From Candidatus Njordarchaeum guaymasense (GTDB taxonomy: Archaea; Asgardarchaeota; Njordarchaeia; Njordarchaeales; Njordarchaeaceae): a stretch of DNA of 64,000 nt. Under the pieces are notes generated by a model. That model worked only from the letters and a program-made list of their open reading frames with translations. It did not search any database and was not told where the DNA came from. Where the stretch lies: assembly GCA_030587605.1 (NCBI GenBank), contig JAUQYT010000196.1, forward strand, positions 1 through 64,000, read 5' to 3'. Positions within the stretch are counted from its first letter, which is position 1. Each line of letters opens with the position of its first letter. This document shows, piece by piece, positions 9,504-56,371 of the stretch. A program made the translations under genes and the position numbers.

Positions 9504-10637
9504 CTACTTTTTAGGAATGAATGACGCAGGCATTTTGATGACTTCTGCCTTTGCCAGCCGCTCCCTAATCTTAACTGCAACGATCATACCTTTCTTTGCG
9601 TATTTCGTCCTCAAATAACCTACGGCGATCCCCTTCTGAAGAACAGGAGAATACGAACCACTTGTAACTTGACCGGCTACCTTTCCTCCTCGAAGGATCT
9701 CATAACCACTTCTCGGAATCCCCCTATCTAGGAGAACTAGCCCGATTCTCAAGCGCTTCAAGCCTTCCCTTCTTTGTCGTAGGAGAGCGCTCCTGCCTAC
9801 AAATGACTTCTTCCTGAACTTGACGAAGAATCTCAACCTAGCTTCAAGCGGTGTAGTATGTTCATCAATATCCTCACCGTAAAGGGGCATACCTGCCTCC
9901 AACCTGAGCGTATCCCTACATCCAAGTCCACATGGCACTATCCCAAACTCCTCCCCTGCCTCCAAGATGGCCTCGAACAATTGAACGGCCTTACCTGACT
10001 CTTGGAGCGGAACATTGAATTGACTCACCTCGAAACCGTCTTCACCTGTATACCCCGTCCGAGAGATGAGAACATCAAACCCGTTAAGTTTAGTCTTATT
10101 ATTGCCGAATCGAGGAATTTCCGCAAGTTTCGCGTCAGTCAGTTTCTGCAAAGTTGCTTCAGCATTTCGTCCTTGAACAGCAAACATGGGGGTACTATCT
10201 GAAACATCCTCAACTACCACATCGTACCTTGCGCTACGCTTTAAAAGCCAGTTGAGGTCTTTCTCCCTGTTCGACGCGTTTACGACGACGTAGAACTCGT
10301 GGCGATCATATCTATATATAAACAGATCGTCAATAATGCCACCATCACGATTACACATTAAAGTGTAGTACGAAGATCTAGATCGTAGGCGCGCAAGATC
10401 ATTTGTAGTCAAATGATTCAAGAAACGACGAGACTGTGAGCCAGTCACTCTGATGCGGCCCATGTGAGTTATGTCAAAAGCACCAACAGAGTTCCTCACG
10501 GCCATATGTTCTGAAATGGTACCAGTTCTCTCATACCAAACGGGCATGTGAAAACCAGCGAAAACAATCATACGCCCTTCATGTGAAACATGCCAGTTGT
10601 AAAGGTGAGTTTTCCGAGGTTCCCTCTGCTGAGACAA
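9504..10637 (-). CDS. gcvT: glycine cleavage system T protein (aminomethyltransferase) family
   Basis: GcvT moves the methylene group from the aminomethyl-lipoyl H protein to tetrahydrofolate or a related pterin, releasing ammonia. The sequence has the expected opening THLYNWHVSHEGRMIVFAGF, the VGAFDITHMGRIRVTG block, CNRDGGIIDDL, ISRTGYTGEDGFEV and CGLGCRDTLRLEAGMPLYG. Length is about 377 residues. Frames further upstream add a hydrophobic run unlike the family, so I start at TTG 10637; GTG 10646 and TTG 10649 are close alternatives. A TATA-like CTATTAATAA lies at 10670-10679. No gcvH or gcvP is nearby; glyA is at 36.6 kb and would share the one-carbon pool. Confidence 0.9.
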   Translation of the reverse strand: MSQQREPRKTHLYNWHVSHEGRMIVFAGFHMPVWYERTGTISEHMAVRNSVGAFDITHMGRIRVTGSQSRRFLNHLTTNDLARLRSRSSYYTLMCNRDGGIIDDLFIYRYDRHEFYVVVNASNREKDLNWLLKRSARYDVVVEDVSDSTPMFAVQGRNAEATLQKLTDAKLAEIPRFGNNKTKLNGFDVLISRTGYTGEDGFEVSQFNVPLQESGKAVQLFEAILEAGEEFGIVPCGLGCRDTLRLEAGMPLYGEDIDEHTTPLEARLRFFVKFRKKSFVGRSALLRQRREGLKRLRIGLVLLDRGIPRSGYEILRGGKVAGQVTSGSYSPVLQKGIAVGYLRTKYAKKGMIVAVKIRERLAKAEVIKMPASFIPKK

Positions 10638-10834
10638 GAGAATCACCAATATTAAAGCCCTAGAATTAGTTATTAATAGTTTCTCACAACTCTCATCCAA
10701 TAAATCAAGCTCACTTCACTGTGAAGGTGAAGACAAAGAATAAACTAAAACATGCGAACGTCCATCAAACATCATTACCTAATAAGAACCCTTTGGACAT
10801 AGGCGAGCACCAATCTCAAAAGGAGGAGATAACG

Positions 10835-24010: not shown

Positions 24011-25270
24011 TTAGTCGCTCTGTTTCGAAAGCTTAGGGACATAGTTTGATATGCTCTTTATTCGCTCGTCGTCCTCGAGAACTTCCTTGACTTGGCTTTG
24101 AGGAACCAAGAGCTTTATCTTCTTAGTTCTCCCGTACCGCCCCTTGCTCTCAACTTTAGCATTGATTATCCCCAGCATGTCCAACTCGTTCACCAAGTCG
24201 CCGACACGCCTTTGTGTAAGCATGTCGAGCCCTAGCTTCCCACAAAACTCGCTATAAACATCAAAAACGCTCCCAGTAATCACTTCCTTCTCTCCGGATT
24301 TCTCCAACAGGTAAATGGTGTAAAGGACTAACTTAGATTGGATTGGCAGGGTTCTCAAGGTCTCAGTCACGGTGTCGTACTCGATGCATCCCTGCGCTGC
24401 GCGAACATGCTTCTCAGTTACCTTGCGCTCACCAGCTCGTTCACATAGCTCCCCAGCAACCCTAAGAAGATCCAAGGCTCGACGGGCATCACCGTGTTCC
24501 CGTGCAGCAAGAGCGGCGCAGAGGTTGATGACCCCTTCATCAAGGATCCCATCGCGGAAACCCATCGCCGCACGTTGCCTTAAGATGTCCTGGAGCTCGG
24601 GAGCAGTATAAGGAGGAAAGACAACTTCCTCTTCACTCAAGCTACTTATAACGCGGGGGTCTAGGTAGTCCTTGAATTTCAGATCGTTAGATATCCCGAC
24701 CAAACTAACCCTCCCCCGCTTCAGAGAGGTGTTAATCCGAGTCAAGTCATACAAGACGTCGTCTCCGTCTTTTTTCACAACCATGTCAACCTCGTCAAGA
24801 ACAATTATCACAAGCTCGTTCTTGTCAGTGATCTCATCCACAAAGCGCCGGTAGACCTCGTCGGTTGGGAGACCAGTGAAAGGAACATCTAACCCGGCGT
24901 CCTTGCACAAGTTTGACAAGACTCGGTAGTTTGTGTCTACAACTCTGCAATTTATATAAGCGGTTCTCAGAGTGGGAACATCCGACCCCGATACCTTTGT
25001 CCTAGCAGACAGGTACTTCAAGACGTACTTTGCGACAGCAGTCTTGCCAGTACCAGTCTTACCATATATGAAAACATTAGAAGGAGTAGAACCTCTAAGA
25101 GAAGAACTAAGAATCGCACCCAAACGTGCAATCTGCTCCTGTCTGTGAGGAAGTTCATCAGGGACAAAAGTAGGTCTCAATACGTCACCGTTCTTGAAAA
25201 TAGTCTGAGACTTCAAAAAGTTGTCAAAGATAGCATCCAATGGACCCTTTTCACTCACCACAGACACCAC
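24011..25270 (-). CDS. cdc6: Orc1/Cdc6 replication initiator, origin-proximal copy
   Basis: This AAA+ protein marks origins and loads the MCM helicase. From GTG 25270 it is 419 residues: Walker A YGKTGTGKTAVAKY, Walker B LVIIVLDEVDMVVK, sensor 1 VSLVGISNDLKFKDYLDPRV, sensor 2 GDARRALDLLRVAG, and a C-terminal winged helix (VFDVYSEFCGKLGLDMLTQRRVGDLVNELDMLGII) that binds ORB DNA. Frames open further upstream to 25495 but add a non-homologous N-terminus, so I start where the family normally begins (VVSVVSEKGPLDAIFDNFLK). GAGAGG precedes the start. It is separated from the predicted origin only by the wHTH-like gene. Confidence 0.95.
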   Translation of the reverse strand: MVSVVSEKGPLDAIFDNFLKSQTIFKNGDVLRPTFVPDELPHRQEQIARLGAILSSSLRGSTPSNVFIYGKTGTGKTAVAKYVLKYLSARTKVSGSDVPTLRTAYINCRVVDTNYRVLSNLCKDAGLDVPFTGLPTDEVYRRFVDEITDKNELVIIVLDEVDMVVKKDGDDVLYDLTRINTSLKRGRVSLVGISNDLKFKDYLDPRVISSLSEEEVVFPPYTAPELQDILRQRAAMGFRDGILDEGVINLCAALAAREHGDARRALDLLRVAGELCERAGERKVTEKHVRAAQGCIEYDTVTETLRTLPIQSKLVLYTIYLLEKSGEKEVITGSVFDVYSEFCGKLGLDMLTQRRVGDLVNELDMLGIINAKVESKGRYGRTKKIKLLVPQSQVKEVLEDDERIKSISNYVPKLSKQSD

Positions 25271-25457
25271 ACCCTCTCTTGCGTCCGCGCAAAGTGAGGA
25301 GCATTTGAAAGAACTGGTAATTATAGTTTTTGGATAAAGACAAAAATGCGTAAGGCCCAACTGAGCTCGAATCAGGGAAGCCTGAAGAATGTAGATAATT
25401 CTGACAACAAAAATAGATAGAGCAACTGATCTTACGACAGAATGATGAGGAAAGACC

Positions 25458-25991
25458 TCATTTAGAAGAGCTCTTAGGAGAACGCGTTCTCTCAATTTGC
25501 GCGATCTCGTCTTTCACCTTCTCGCCGCGCAGAAGGTACTCATAGCCACCCACACCATGACGCCGCTCAAGAATACCATTAGTGGAATCTGCAAGGCGAA
25601 GAAGGTATGTCGAAACTGTGCTGCCTCTCAGTCTCCGTTTGAAGACTGTCTCATATTCGTCTTGCACGTCTCGAGAAGTGAAGGACCCGTACCGGAAATG
25701 CTTGACCAACAAGAATCTGACTTTATCGAATGTGCTGGAGAAAGATACGGACTCAACAGGTCCGACCTCAGCAGCCCCTTCCCCTAGTTTTTCACCCTCT
25801 GCCAATGTGCCTCTAGATGACAGTACGCTCGAAATGTATTTACCTATGGACTCAGAGAGCGACTTAGGAATCGCTCCATCGACCATCACAGTGACCCTCC
25901 CGCCAGTGTCAGGGTCGAAGACCTCTATCTTGATCAAGGCATTCTTTGGCAACGCCGGATCACCAAAAACAAGAGTGACACAATCATTCAC
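25458..25991 (-). CDS. hypothetical protein with C-terminal winged-helix-like domain next to oriC
   Basis: A 177-residue protein with a GTG start. The N-terminal 60 residues (CVTLVFGDPALPKNALIKIEVFDPDTGG...) are beta-rich. Residues about 90-160 look like a winged helix: FDKVRFLLVKHFRYGSFTSRDVQDEYETVFKRRLRGSTVSTYLLRLADS, then a wing (ILERRHGVGGYEYLL). I do not recognise the family. It is encoded between orc1/cdc6 and the predicted origin, reading away from the origin. A TTCACA half-site overlaps its start codon and four more copies of that motif lie just upstream. I infer a DNA-binding protein acting at the origin or on its own promoter. Confidence 0.7.
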   Translation of the reverse strand: MNDCVTLVFGDPALPKNALIKIEVFDPDTGGRVTVMVDGAIPKSLSESIGKYISSVLSSRGTLAEGEKLGEGAAEVGPVESVSFSSTFDKVRFLLVKHFRYGSFTSRDVQDEYETVFKRRLRGSTVSTYLLRLADSTNGILERRHGVGGYEYLLRGEKVKDEIAQIERTRSPKSSSK

Positions 25992-26002
25992 AGCTTACAG
26001 CG

Positions 26003-26052
26003 TTCACAACTATTAAACATTACGATAACATTCACAATGTGAACTTGTGAAC
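26003..26052. repeat. TTCACA/TGTGAA palindrome cluster, site 1 with flanking half-sites
   Basis: A palindrome, TTCACA-A-TGTGAA at 26031-26043, is flanked by the half-sites TTCACAA (26003-26009) and TTGTGAAC (26045-26052). It lies directly upstream of the wHTH gene start, where a further TTCACA (25987-25992) overlaps the start codon. Confidence 0.75.
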
Positions 26053-26185
26053 ATAGCTGAGACAAGGAAACAACAAGTCGGACGACCAATGCACCTCCTC
26101 CGCTCCCGCGGATGGAATGAGGCAACCGACTGAGGAAGATCCAGGCTTCAGCGATTGTGGTGGAAAACCTGCACGTCAGGATCCA

Positions 26186-26199
26186 TTCACATTTGTGAA
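26186..26199. repeat. TTCACA/TGTGAA palindrome, site 2
   Basis: TTCACA and TGTGAA are separated by two T. It lies 42 bases to the left of ORB 1. Confidence 0.75.
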
Positions 26200-26240
26200 G
26201 AAGGGGAAATCAGGCAATATGGGAGGAGGGAAACCCTTTT

Positions 26241-26260
26241 TTCCAGTGGAAATAGGGGGG
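26241..26260 (+). promoter_or_regulatory. origin recognition box 1 (ORB)
   Basis: TTCCAGTGGAAA followed at once by a run of six G matches the archaeal ORB: a dyad core plus a G-string on one side that orients Orc1/Cdc6. Confidence 0.85.
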
Positions 26261-26361
26261 TTAAGGAACCCTTTTCCGACAAAAAAGGCTGATAATAGCT
26301 CTAAAAGGTCGAAATAGAAGCATGTAATCACCACCGCAAGACCGTCTCTCGCAACCTCGAG

Positions 26362-26381
26362 TTCACAAAGCTACTTGTGAA
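26362..26381. repeat. TTCACAA/TTGTGAA palindrome, site 3
   Basis: Seven-base arms TTCACAA and TTGTGAA flank a six-base spacer. The site lies between the two ORBs. Confidence 0.75.
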
Positions 26382-26589
26382 GATGATGTGCATTAAGGGA
26401 GTCCACACCCCTTCATCTCCACTCGAGAAAGCTCCAAACGGATAGAGGACCTCTTATATGTTCAGAAGCCTTGTTACTAATATCGACAAAATATGATAAG
26501 AATAGTTATATGTAAAACAATCCCTCTCCAATTGGGCTCTCTCGCAAACTGGGTACACACATCTCTCCACCCAACGTCCCATCGCGAAC

Positions 26590-26610
26590 TTCCAGTGGAA
26601 ATGTAAGGGT
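26590..26610 (+). promoter_or_regulatory. origin recognition box 2 (ORB or mini-ORB)
   Basis: A second copy of the identical core TTCCAGTGGAAA, followed after four bases by AAGGGT. It is in the same orientation as ORB 1 and 349 bases from it. The shorter G-run makes it closer to a mini-ORB. Confidence 0.78.
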
Positions 26611-26683
26611 GCGCCAAGGGTCAGAGGCGTGATCCCCTGGGTTTTCTGCCAGTCCTTGTCGCCCACTTGGCGGCATAGATGAT

Positions 26684-26730
26684 GTCTTAGGTAACGTTTA
26701 TATGGTTAGGCATCTTATGTTACCTAAGAC
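26684..26730. repeat. perfect 12-bp inverted repeat around a promoter
   Basis: GTCTTAGGTAAC (26684-26695) and GTTACCTAAGAC (26719-26730) are exact inverted copies separated by 23 bases that include the TATA-like GTTTATATGG. A related copy, GTCTTAGGTATTAC, overlaps the stop codon of the following gene (27105-27118). It could be an operator, or the ends of a small inserted unit. Confidence 0.85.
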
Positions 26731-26754
26731 TTAGCCGCTTGGCGGTGGCGAGTT

Positions 26755-27111
26755 TTGGAAGCCTTGGTGAGAAGAATACAGGAGCTTTCCTCGCGAAAGA
26801 AACGGATTAGTGAGGAGATCAACACTGTGGCTACTGCTTCCGACGTTAGTCAGGGCGAGGGGAGTGTCGGTTGTCTGAGGTTGGAGGACGTTTATTGTGT
26901 TAAAGACGGCAAGAGGTACGGTCCTTTTGGGCCCTACTATTATATTTATTTCCATAGGACCGGGAAACTGGAGAAGCGTTATGTTGGGAAGCGGGCTGAC
27001 CAGCTGAACGTCAGGCTGGAGGCCCTGAGTAGGCTCAGGGAGTTGGAGGCGGAGTATAGGGACATATTGAGGTTGGAGCGTAGGCTGATGAGGGCGCTTC
27101 GATTGTCTTAG
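26755..27111 (+). CDS. small basic protein resembling DUF6788
   Basis: A 118-residue protein with a TTG start. It has an N-terminal coiled-coil helix, then CLRLEDVYCVKDGKRYGPFGPYYYIYFHRTGKLEKRYVGK, and a C-terminal charged helix. The GPYYY...GKLEKRYVGK signature resembles DUF6788, small proteins common in archaea and often found near mobile DNA; the two Cys could be the remnant of a metal site. The gene lies almost exactly between copies of the TACCTAAGAC/GTCTTAGGTA repeat. It comes right after the predicted origin and before parA. Function is unknown. Confidence 0.7.
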   Translation: MEALVRRIQELSSRKKRISEEINTVATASDVSQGEGSVGCLRLEDVYCVKDGKRYGPFGPYYYIYFHRTGKLEKRYVGKRADQLNVRLEALSRLRELEAEYRDILRLERRLMRALRLS

Positions 27112-27225
27112 GTATTACGTTCTTGCCTCTCCATATGGGTCCAAAAAAAGCTTTTATTGGTTGTGCTATCCTCTTCATTAGTGAATTCGCGTCTGCTCGG
27201 GGATGGTGTTTTTGGTTTGGGCGAA

Positions 27226-27993
27226 ATGAGGGTTGTGGCTTTGTGCAACCAAAAAGGCGGTGTTGGTAAGACTACTAGCGCTATTAATCTTAGTGCGGCC
27301 CTCAAGATTCTTGGGAAGAAGATGTTGCTCCTTGATTTGGATCCCCAGGCGAATTCTTCTGTGTCGTTTTTCGGTTTTGATGTGTTCAATTCCCCTGTTT
27401 CAATCTACAACGTTCTAGTTGATGAGAACGTTAATATTCACGATGTGATCAGGCGAACGGATGAGGGTGTTGATGTTCTTCCTTCTAACTTGAATCTCGC
27501 TGGTGCGGAGCTTGAACTCACTGGTTCCATCGCTGGTGAGACTGCTCTTAGGGATAGGCTTGTTGGAGTCCAAGGCGAGTATGACTATGTTCTTATCGAT
27601 TGCCCCCCCGCCTTGAACATTTTCACTGTCAATGCACTGGTTGCTGCTACTGACGTGTTTATCTGTATTCAGCCTTCCTTCCTGCCTATGGTTGGGACGG
27701 AGCAATTGACAAGGACCATCAAGATTGTTAAGAGTAGGCTTAATAGCAAGCTGAAGGTCTCCGGGATTATCTTGACAATGTGTGATGAGCGGAAGATTAT
27801 ACGCCGGGAGTCTATTAACGAGATTAATCGTTACTTTAGTGACGTTGTCTTCGACACTCGTATCCGTGTTGATGTCAAGCTCGAGGAAGCGCCTTCTCAC
27901 ATGAAGTCAATTTTCAAGTATGCGCCTGAGTCGCATGGCGCAGAGGATTATATGAATCTGGCTAAGGAAGTGGTTAAACGTGTCCAAGGATGA
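27226..27993 (+). CDS. parA: ParA-family chromosome/plasmid partition ATPase
   Basis: ParA ATPases bind DNA non-specifically and move ParB-bound cargo during segregation. This 255-residue protein (from ATG 27226, MRVVALCNQKGGVGKTTSAINL) has the deviant Walker A KGGVGKTT, the switch I region LDLDPQANSS and Walker B YVLIDCPPALN. It lacks an N-terminal HTH, as in chromosomal type Ib-like ParA proteins. A TATA-like CTTTTATTGG is about 75 bases upstream. The 3' end overlaps parB by 14 bases, so the two are translationally coupled. Confidence 0.93.
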   Translation: MRVVALCNQKGGVGKTTSAINLSAALKILGKKMLLLDLDPQANSSVSFFGFDVFNSPVSIYNVLVDENVNIHDVIRRTDEGVDVLPSNLNLAGAELELTGSIAGETALRDRLVGVQGEYDYVLIDCPPALNIFTVNALVAATDVFICIQPSFLPMVGTEQLTRTIKIVKSRLNSKLKVSGIILTMCDERKIIRRESINEINRYFSDVVFDTRIRVDVKLEEAPSHMKSIFKYAPESHGAEDYMNLAKEVVKRVQG

Positions 27994-28798
27994 TAAGCGT
28001 AGGCGACTTGGCTCCACCGTTTTCGGCGAATTGAGTAAGCTAGCTGGAGTATATAATGTTCAGGATGTTTCGCTCGATGAGATCGATCTAGAAGGCAGTA
28101 AGTTTAGGACCCGTAGTGATCTTGGTGAAAAGCAGATCGCTGAGCTGGCTGATTCAATTAGGAGTGAAGGGTTGATCAATCCTGTTGTGGTTCGACGGAA
28201 AGGCAGCAAGTATGAGTTGATCTCAGGTTTCAGGAGGGTTGAATCTGTTCGTAGGCTGGGGGAGCCTAGTATCAAGGCTATTGTTGTTAGTGTTGATGAC
28301 GATAAGGCTTTCAGGATTGCCGTGTCGGAGAATTTGAAGAGGAAGAGTTTAACGCCCATTGAGATTGGTTTGATGTGTGATAGGCTTGTTAACGAGGGTA
28401 AGTCCTATGACGAGGTTGGGCGGTTAATGGGTTTGTCGGCTAAGCAGATTCAGCGGTACCTCCGCGGTTTGAGGTTGAGTGAGGAAGTCAGGAACTCATT
28501 GAACAAGGGAGAAATCAGCTTCTTTACGGCGCTTGAGATTGGGAAAGTGGACGGCGCCGTCCAGTCGGATTTGCTAAAAAAGGTCCTAAAGTCCAACCTA
28601 TCCACGCGGGACGTTGTCAAACTAATTAAGGATATGCGGAAGAGCGAAAGCAGTCATGGGGCTATCGGGGATTTGCCTAATGTCAAGTTTAAGAGAGGTC
28701 AAATCATAATAACGTCTTCAGGCAGCGATCTCGTCAAGACTCTGAAAGTTCTTCTTAGGGAAGCCGAGAAAGGTACGGTCCAGAAAATAATCGGCTAG
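27980..28798 (+). CDS. parB: ParB-family partition protein
   Basis: A 272-residue ParB-like protein with a GTG start. It has the N-terminal ParB/Srx domain (LADSIRSEGLINPVVVRRKGSKYELISGFRRVESVRRLG, with a SENLKRKSLTPIE motif corresponding to the ENLQR box of CTP-binding ParB proteins), followed by an HTH (YDEVGRLMGLSAKQIQRYLRGLRLSEEV). The C-terminal 60 residues are charged and may dimerise. It overlaps parA, sits 1.2 kb from the predicted origin, and would bind a parS-like site. A candidate palindrome lies 40 bases downstream of its stop. Confidence 0.93.
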   Translation: MSKDDKRRRLGSTVFGELSKLAGVYNVQDVSLDEIDLEGSKFRTRSDLGEKQIAELADSIRSEGLINPVVVRRKGSKYELISGFRRVESVRRLGEPSIKAIVVSVDDDKAFRIAVSENLKRKSLTPIEIGLMCDRLVNEGKSYDEVGRLMGLSAKQIQRYLRGLRLSEEVRNSLNKGEISFFTALEIGKVDGAVQSDLLKKVLKSNLSTRDVVKLIKDMRKSESSHGAIGDLPNVKFKRGQIIITSSGSDLVKTLKVLLREAEKGTVQKIIG

Positions 28799-55159: not shown

Positions 55160-56371
55160 TTGGAAGACAATGCCGTTGAAGAAATTCTATTTGGAAAATC
55201 AGTTTTTAGGAATGAAGCTACGCTACTCTCAGAGTACGTCCCCCCGAGACTTCCACGTAGAGAGCGAGAAATAGTGCGTTTGGCGCAGGATTTCAGACCT
55301 CTCCTCATAAAAGACGGAGCCTTCGCTGTTAATATTGCAGTAATAGGTGAAGCTGGAACAGGCAAATCGGTACTGGCAAAGTTTGTCATGGAACGGATAG
55401 TTCATGCCGCAATGAAGAAAAACATGAAGATGTTCTTCGAGTATTTCAACTGCTATACTTTTCGCACAAAGAGCGCAGTTCTAAGGAATTTACTCACTGA
55501 ACGTTTTCACGTCTTGAGCCGTGGCTTCTCTGATGAGGAACTATTAGGCATGTTAATCAAAAGGCTTGTAAACGAAAACGCGAAACTCGTGATCGTACTT
55601 GACGAGGCTCCTATATTAGGGGGTGAAGAGATGCTAAGTATGTTGCACGCCTCAGAGGTGTACGGGTTCGGTCAGTCTCGTATTTCAACAGTTATTGTAA
55701 GTCGTCCGTCTGAGTGGCGAGTCATGTTGAGTGCTCCTCTATCAGGGCACATACATGATCAGATAAACATGAGTAGTTACAGCAAAAGGGATCTCATCGA
55801 AATACTGCGTTACAGGGCAGATGTGGCATTCGTTCCAAGCGCAGTCTCCGAAGAGGTTCTGGGCATGGTAGCAGAAATAGCAGCAAGTACGAGAAACGCT
55901 AGACATGGTATCGAAATACTTTATCAGGCTGGTAAGATAGCCGACTCGGTGGGTAAGACCCAGCTTACTGCTGAGATGATTAGACAGGCGAAGGAAAGCG
56001 TCTACCCTGAACTAAGATACGACATATTCTATACTCTAAAGTCACATGAAATCCTAACAGCATTAGGCATAGCGAGACTGCTAAGCAGTAGAGGAACAAC
56101 GTCTACAACCATCGATGAAGCCTTCGACTACTACCGTATCGTATGTGAAGAAGAAGAATTCTCACCTCAGTTAAAGTCAAGCTTCAGGAAGAATGTTAAT
56201 CTCTTGCTCAACTTGGGATTCATGGGAATGATTGTAGGTCCCGTGGAAAGGGGAAAGCGTGGTAGACATGGGAGAATAAGCCTGTATGATATCCCAGCAA
56301 GTATCCTCGAAGAAAGACTCCACGATATCATTGGTAAGATGAAGAAAGGGGATCTCAGTGGCGCAGACTGA
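55160..56371 (+). CDS. second Orc1/Cdc6-family AAA+ protein
   Basis: A 403-residue initiator-type ATPase with a TTG start. Features are the N-terminal VFRNEATLLSEYVPPRLPRREREI (matching the family's VFRDEEVLLPEYVP), Walker A VIGEAGTGKSVLAKF, Walker B LVIVLDEAPILGG, sensor 2 STRNARHGIEILYQAG and a C-terminal winged helix ending RGKRGRHGRISLYDIP. It differs clearly from the copy at 24 kb. I see no ORB around it, so its own origin, if any, is not evident. Archaea often have two or more such paralogues, some of which repress initiation. Confidence 0.92.
   Translation: MEDNAVEEILFGKSVFRNEATLLSEYVPPRLPRREREIVRLAQDFRPLLIKDGAFAVNIAVIGEAGTGKSVLAKFVMERIVHAAMKKNMKMFFEYFNCYTFRTKSAVLRNLLTERFHVLSRGFSDEELLGMLIKRLVNENAKLVIVLDEAPILGGEEMLSMLHASEVYGFGQSRISTVIVSRPSEWRVMLSAPLSGHIHDQINMSSYSKRDLIEILRYRADVAFVPSAVSEEVLGMVAEIAASTRNARHGIEILYQAGKIADSVGKTQLTAEMIRQAKESVYPELRYDIFYTLKSHEILTALGIARLLSSRGTTSTTIDEAFDYYRIVCEEEEFSPQLKSSFRKNVNLLLNLGFMGMIVGPVERGKRGRHGRISLYDIPASILEERLHDIIGKMKKGDLSGAD

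Follow-up and report, generated by a model that had tools for sequence, protein, structure and literature searches.

A stretch of 64,000 nucleotides assigned to Candidatus Njordarchaeum guaymasense (the window; 64 kb of contig C343 in the 3.46-Mb metagenome assembly G000) contains a likely chromosomal replication origin, at which an array of TTCACA half-sites surrounds an origin recognition box (ORB) beside a gene for a small protein of 177 residues with a predicted winged-helix fold. The array recurs across Asgard archaea together with this gene, and its sites are kept in register to the ORB. Judging from sequence comparison, we consider it rather likely that the locus represents an Asgard chromosomal origin in which the ORBs serve Orc1/Cdc6 and the TTCACA array is read by the adjacent winged-helix protein, an auxiliary initiation factor that represses its own gene. 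The parts of the locus, in the coordinates of the window, are the following:

24011 to 25495, minus strand: orc1/cdc6 initiator open reading frame (ORF), with the Cdc6-like protein read from 25264 (Cdc6_C 2.8e-32, Cdc6_lid 8.9e-28)
25458 to 25991, minus strand: gene of 177 aa, proposed origin-binding factor with a beta-beta-alpha module and a C-terminal winged helix (ORF, AlphaFold)
25987 to 25992, plus strand: TTCACA half-site on the GTG start codon
26003 to 26008, plus strand: TTCACA half-site slightly upstream of the gene, presumably in its promoter
26031 to 26043, no strand: palindrome TTCACA-N1-TGTGAA
26046 to 26051, minus strand: TTCACA half-site
26186 to 26199, no strand: palindrome TTCACA-N2-TGTGAA on the gene side, 49-57 bp from the ORB centre
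26242 to 26261, plus strand: ORB TCCAGTGGAAATAGGGGGGT, presumed Orc1/Cdc6 site with a G-string (2/20 mismatches to the common ORB)
26362 to 26381, no strand: palindrome TTCACA-N8-TGTGAA on the far side, 119-133 bp from the ORB centre
26440 to 26530, no strand: AT-rich stretch between the two ORBs, candidate unwinding element
26591 to 26610, plus strand: second ORB-like site TCCAGTGGAAATGTAAGGGT (2/20 mismatches to the common ORB)

The segment 25987-26381 holds nine TTCACA half-sites (25987, 26003, 26031, 26186 and 26362 on the plus strand; 26038, 26046, 26194 and 26376 on the minus strand), which flank the ORB at 26242-26261, itself located between the second and third palindromes. Within 25986-26755, the nine half-sites compare with a mean of 0.51 (maximum 5) in dinucleotide shuffles, and the three palindromes with a mean of 0.001 (maximum 1); neither number was reached in any of 5000 shuffles. 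The pattern TTCACA-N0-8-TGTGAA has three matches in the whole window, against a shuffled-window mean of 0.08. A sequence-only reading of this DNA had reported palindromes at 26031, 26186 and 26362, a half-site overlapping the start codon and a position of the gene between orc1/cdc6 and the origin. All of this was recovered: the half-site at 25987-25992 overlaps the GTG at 25989-25991, and the ORF list and domain search place the 177-aa ORF (25458-25991, minus strand) between orc1/cdc6 and the array. The same reading held that the sites are confined to the origin stretch, which stands for the palindromes and fails for the half-sites, since 35 of the 44 in the window lie outside it; the densest spot elsewhere has four per 600 bp. 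A weak second cluster, of four TTCACA half-sites with a TTCACTGTGAA palindrome, is located at 10547-10725. Across the whole 3.46-Mb assembly seven palindromes were counted, three of them here, one by a second copy of the gene (contig C235) and three elsewhere, which is not a random scatter; chance matches at the shuffle rate of the window would number about four, and a control pattern read backwards gave one.

The ORBs fit what is known of archaeal origins. Compared with the common archaeal ORB as given in the Ori-Finder 2 paper (PMC4164010), TCCAGTGGAAATAGGGGGGT and TCCAGTGGAAATGTAAGGGT each carry the TCCA..GGAAA core and the G-string and deviate at two of 20 positions, and exact matches to it were found in 'Asgard group archaeon LC30' (G013) and other relatives. 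The cdc6 gene follows directly past the winged-helix gene, and the A+T content of 60-base windows centred at 26470 and 26500 is 67% and 73%, respectively. The combination of ORBs, an AT-rich stretch and a neighbouring orc1/cdc6 corresponds to the usual archaeal layout and points to a likely origin.

Homologues of the winged-helix gene were found by profile search in 119 of 227 genomes of the Asgard phylum, as a single copy in 112 of the 119. A peptide-pattern scan of GTDB species genomes gave 43 loci, two of which carry just the title 'archaeon', while the titles of the other 41 name the Asgard group or Thor-, Jord-, Frey-, Sigyn- or Lokiarchaeota; the Asgard-only distribution is that of this one, non-exhaustive scan. 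The comparison covered 104 loci with 101 distinct genes in 23 groups, the families f1-f29 being unnamed groups assigned by hand; named loci of the GTDB scan without other placement were counted as f6, the Thorarchaeal-type family (two are titled Lokiarchaeota and two 'archaeon'). The window itself was kept apart from f9, as f9*, because its assembly is mixed. The closest relative of the 177-aa gene is in LC30 (62-63% identity). Because contamination of G000 amounts to 11.9% and its same-species and same-genus relatives have only a distant copy of the gene, the window may derive from an LC30-like organism binned with others in G000, which leaves the Asgard assignment unaffected. A second, diverged copy with its own cdc6 and upstream TTCACA sites is present in G000 (locus L111, contig C235) and in LC30 (L265), and may mark a second origin; L111 is labelled f1, yet this copy is unlike the other f1 copies.

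At least four TTCACA sites within 600 bp were found at 82 of the 104 loci, or at 79 of 101 when three duplicate loci, which were also dropped from the 6-mer and spacing counts, are set aside. The 22 loci without an array include all of f7, f8, f17, f20, f22, f25 and f27, and some of the others are cut by contig ends. Ranked by enrichment over the 600 bp preceding the gene, TTCACA comes first of all 6-mers in eight of the 23 groups (f1, f3, f9*, f10, f15, f21, f23 and f26), second in f2, f6, f9, f12 and f16, third in f14, and outside the top seven in f7, f8, f17, f18, f20, f22, f25, f27 and f29. The enrichment is large in f6, where 37 loci have 285 sites upstream of the gene compared to 22.5 expected. 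In contrast, none of 46 cdc6 loci lacking the gene beside them (16 from f6 genomes and 30 from genomes where the gene was not found) carries an array, the maximum being three sites, with the limit that these control loci are 1.7-3.3 kb long and the gene loci up to 12 kb. Among 38 sampled 20-kb stretches off the gene in two genomes, one of them G011 (f7), the maximum was five sites per 600 bp. The composite signature ORB-N26-56-TTCACA, too, goes with the gene: it occurs in 53 of 227 genomes, namely 48 of the 119 with the gene and five of the 108 without, as counted from place lists copied by hand for the 2x2 table, and 51 of its 63 matches are at most 6 kb from the gene. The suggestion that the gene stays next to cdc6 in relatives was borne out in that it lies near likely origins: cdc6 occurs inside the examined flanks (up to about 6 kb) at 39 of 65 non-f6 loci and at none of the 39 f6 loci. 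In all eight f6 genomes checked, the contig with the gene also carries a lower-scoring second cdc6 at a distance of 19-22 kb, and in f6 the ORB and the array stay at the gene.

The distances between the sites and the ORB are also retained. With the ORB centre as zero, similar positions (near -133/-120, -102, +44 to +63, +195 to +232 and +240 to +282) carry sites in the window, LC30, f6, f10, f12, f14, f15 and f26, some of them being missing in some families. With one locus (the first listed) for each of seven families, out of nine groups in which an ORB precedes the gene by 230-360 bp (f1, whose locus had no site in range, and f9, which is close to the window, were left out), 54 site-pair coincidences within 8 bp were observed against 26.3 +/- 4.9 for circular shifts, none of 10,000 of which reached this value. 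Tighter limits gave 43 against 18.0 within 5 bp (0/10,000) and 27 against 11.8 within 3 bp (2/10,000). The regions compared are only 26-43% identical without gaps, so the distances have been kept though the DNA has diverged. Local matches between them were listed in 40 rows (20 matches, each twice), 34 of which lie over the ORB and six (three matches of 18-24 bp) elsewhere.

The protein itself has little similarity to described families. Searched to E 1, the window protein matched nothing in Pfam, and its NCBIfam match (E 0.2) is attributable to chance. Among 22 family members no Pfam or NCBIfam model, including those of the MarR, ArsR, PadR and BlaI repressors, scored above its cut-off, the best being Penicillinase_R (0.0021, Pfam) and MecI (0.0027, NCBIfam). 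The winged-helix C-terminus proposed from the letters agrees with an AlphaFold model built on a 29-sequence alignment (mean pLDDT 68), which predicts a confident winged helix at about residues 87-160 (block pLDDT 78-94), preceded by a beta-beta-alpha module of low confidence; in the model of the Thorarchaeal form (mean pLDDT 80) this module is present twice, one copy after the other. The matches listed by Foldseek were all winged-helix proteins, of diverse types (F93, PadR, RosR, ArsR, MarR and some Cdt1), with best E-values of 0.011 and 0.001 for the two models; no match fell below E 0.001, and the likeness was confined to the winged helix. Kinship with Cdt1 is not claimed from these matches, as the Cdt1 chains stand amid MarR and PadR at similar scores and with an rmsd of 8-22. 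A profile compared with PDB sequences gave ygaV (E 8e-5), all its other matches being weak and to winged helices of the ArsR/MarR/BlaI type, and a virus scan with A1 gave no relative.

The co-occurrence of gene and array, their location and the predicted fold suggest that the winged-helix protein is probably the reader of the TTCACA array. Changes in the putative recognition helix point weakly the same way. In f8, GTTAACA takes the place of TTCACA (22 sites compared to 0.9 expected), and residue 125 is V or A instead of T; it is A in f17 and f22, which are both without an array. An array is present in 15 of 19 families with T125 and in none of the three without (f8, f17 and f22; Fisher p 0.023).

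An explanation that needs no role in replication is that the protein is purely an autoregulator and the array its own multi-site operator, sharing an intergenic region with the origin. For 71 of the 82 clustered loci, the distance from the gene to the start of the best cluster on its upstream side is at most 1000 bp, a half-site covers the start codon in the window, and the fold resembles that of MarR, ArsR and PadR repressors. The sites of the window, however, extend 390 bp from the start codon, past the ORB, and the distances of the sites are fixed to the ORB across families. The family f18, of which 9 out of 19 genomes with the gene were examined, speaks against it: at all nine loci an array of 7-9 sites per 600 bp begins 1.4-4.9 kb past the end of the gene, with an exact ORB inside it at eight and a position between the gene and cdc6 at seven, so that it is not merely the operator of the gene. 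The 600 bp before the gene contain four TTCACA sites in total at nine f18 loci, the expectation of 8.0 being inflated as the count takes in the array. Autoregulation as the whole story was therefore rejected on the position of the f18 array, and we regard a pure autoregulator as unlikely; an array lying kilobases from the promoter favours the origin-binding role proposed by the sequence-only reading, in which the protein would bind the origin. At the f18 loci (L124-L142), ATGTACA is enriched over the 600 bp that precede the gene (19 compared to 0.7 expected), apart from the downstream TTCACA array.

Another protein, for example a second Orc1/Cdc6 paralogue, might read the sites and the winged-helix protein might be an unrelated neighbour. 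Sulfolobus and haloarchaeal origins are, as described in PMC4010727, each recognised by their own neighbouring initiator, and several Orc1/Cdc6 genes occur per genome. However, the arrays track the winged-helix gene rather than cdc6, being absent from all 46 cdc6 loci elsewhere; in f6 the array remains at the gene at a distance of 19-22 kb from cdc6; and the shift to TTAACA in f8 accompanies a changed recognition helix, which is a weak argument. We hold this explanation to be improbable too. A further possibility is a segregation locus, with the palindromes acting as parS-like sites for the product of the ParB-like gene at 27980-28798. TTCAC/GTGAA is likewise part of bacterial parS, the ParA- and ParB-like genes of the window are 0.8-2.4 kb away from the array, and a ParB-like gene is about 2 kb from the winged-helix gene in LC30. 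A general ParB reader, however, should be present wherever the sites occur, and ParB_N was detected in just five of 16 genomes tested (four above the cut-off). The genomes in which it was missed include, from families bearing the array, four of f6 (G010, G051, G073, G130) and the tested members of f10, f12, f15, f21 and f23, besides an f14 member with three TTCACA sites and an f8 member with TTAACA. ParB/parS was thus rejected as the general reader, and a segregation locus is very unlikely. As for a chance or compositional effect in an AT-rich intergenic region, to which the 35 half-sites at background density elsewhere in the window and the weak cluster of four at 10547-10725 might point, it is refuted by the shuffles (0/5000) and by the recurrence of the array in many families in register to the ORB, and its probability is negligible.

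Several observations weigh against a winged-helix reader of Asgard origins. In G011 (f7), the stretch around the gene has at most three sites per 600 bp and another sampled stretch has five; because this gene stretch lacks an array, our confidence in the main reading was lowered slightly and that in another reader raised. The families f20, f25 and f27 keep both the gene and T125 without an array, as does f7 with its three sites at most, and the link between T125 and the motif is weak, since several other alignment columns associate with the array equally or better. The large, AT-rich family f5 has no genome with the composite ORB-N26-56-TTCACA and three with weak gene matches only, so the gene is dispensable at the level of the phylum, and base composition confounds the comparison of the composite between genomes with and without the gene. 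GC skew, sampled in two single-contig genomes (20 x 20 kb each), had no clear turning point at the gene. For Odinarchaeum, GC skew served to choose a potential origin, at which the numbering of bases was made to start (PMC9246712); the gene of G011 is located at 623 kb and, if G011 is Odinarchaeum, that far from the published origin. ORB-like sites also occur at Thorarchaeal cdc6 genes elsewhere, where a second origin is therefore possible. The spacing of half-sites, finally, is fixed within some families (f6 has 29 inverted pairs at a distance of 9 bp and 34 direct pairs at a distance of 12 bp) and differs between them. This is unlike a rigid dimer operator and suggests dimers that are flexible or monomers acting in pairs.

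In the mechanism that we propose, Orc1/Cdc6 would read the ORBs, while the TTCACA half-sites would be read by the small winged-helix protein encoded alongside. This protein, probably in the form of flexible dimers or of monomers in pairs, would occupy sites approximately 45-60, 100-135 and 195-280 bp away from the ORB; bound on both sides of the Orc1/Cdc6 site, it may shape the origin DNA as an auxiliary initiation factor. Binding nearest to its own start codon might repress the gene, so that the level of the protein would be coupled to the occupancy of the origin. A positive or architectural role is somewhat favoured over that of a pure inhibitor.

Some features recall other replication systems. 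In the bacterial DnaA-oriC system with Fis/IHF, the origin contains an array of sites, and some of these lie at the promoter from which the binding protein itself is expressed; the Asgard locus resembles it in the origin array and in the sites at a presumed promoter of the gene and differs in that Orc1/Cdc6 is the presumed initiator, and we know of no homology between the two. With the Orc1/Cdc6-ORB systems, as presented in PMC4010727 and PMC4164010, it has in common the ORB with a G-string, the AT-rich stretch and the neighbouring cdc6, to which a second, unrelated family of sites with its own gene is added here. WhiP of Sulfolobus oriC3 is likewise a winged-helix protein encoded beside an archaeal origin; according to the account in PMC4010727, it is the initiator of an origin without an observed ORB and is related to eukaryotic Cdt1. 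Unlike at the ORB-less oriC3, ORBs and orc1/cdc6 are present here, and the Pfam matches up to E 1 include none to a Cdt1 family. UBP, which acts with the ucm motif at Sulfolobus oriC1, is described in PMC12141716; it is a small protein that binds DNA at a motif of its own next to the ORBs and has an auxiliary part rather than that of the initiator, as is proposed here. Compared with that description, the Asgard family differs in its predicted beta-beta-alpha and winged-helix architecture and in an array whose sites keep register with the ORB. Neither the 50 fold matches listed for each model nor the sequence matches listed name UBP, and no direct comparison was made. By analogy alone, UBP appears nearest in role and WhiP nearest in fold and place.

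The surroundings of the origin contain several further elements. At 26684-26730 there is a perfect inverted repeat, GTCTTAGGTAAC, whose 12-bp arms are separated by 23 nt, and a partial copy, CTTAGGTA, is located at 27107; CTTAGGTAAC is absent from the rest of the window. This repeat might be bound by the ParB-like protein or by the product of the ORF at 26755. The latter, a 118-aa ORF (26755-27111) between the origin and parA, has a sub-threshold match to DUF6788 (E 0.0022), and the ParA-like and ParB-like genes adjoin the origin at 27157-28798. A further, more distant Orc1/Cdc6-like gene is found at 56033-56287, 30 kb off the origin.

In the literature searched, with subscription journals and preprints mostly outside the search, no Asgard origin-binding factor of this kind was recognised, and the protein seems to be a replication factor unstudied so far. 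The 2025 paper on UBP (PMC12141716) asks in its closing part whether more divergent archaea own analogous origin proteins, and the winged-helix gene with its TTCACA sites is a concrete candidate answer. The combined signature of ORB and TTCACA sites may also serve to predict Asgard origins, where sampled GC skew gave no help. Asgard archaea are the closest known relatives of eukaryotes, and for this reason a dedicated origin-binding winged-helix factor in them would bear on the rise of eukaryotic origin licensing. It is a tentative thought, less probable than the auxiliary role itself, that the array and its protein represent a second, ancient Asgard origin-recognition system, inherited from an early Asgard ancestor, in which the winged-helix factor and Orc1/Cdc6 together license the origin, and which might be a functional forerunner of Cdt1-like factors.
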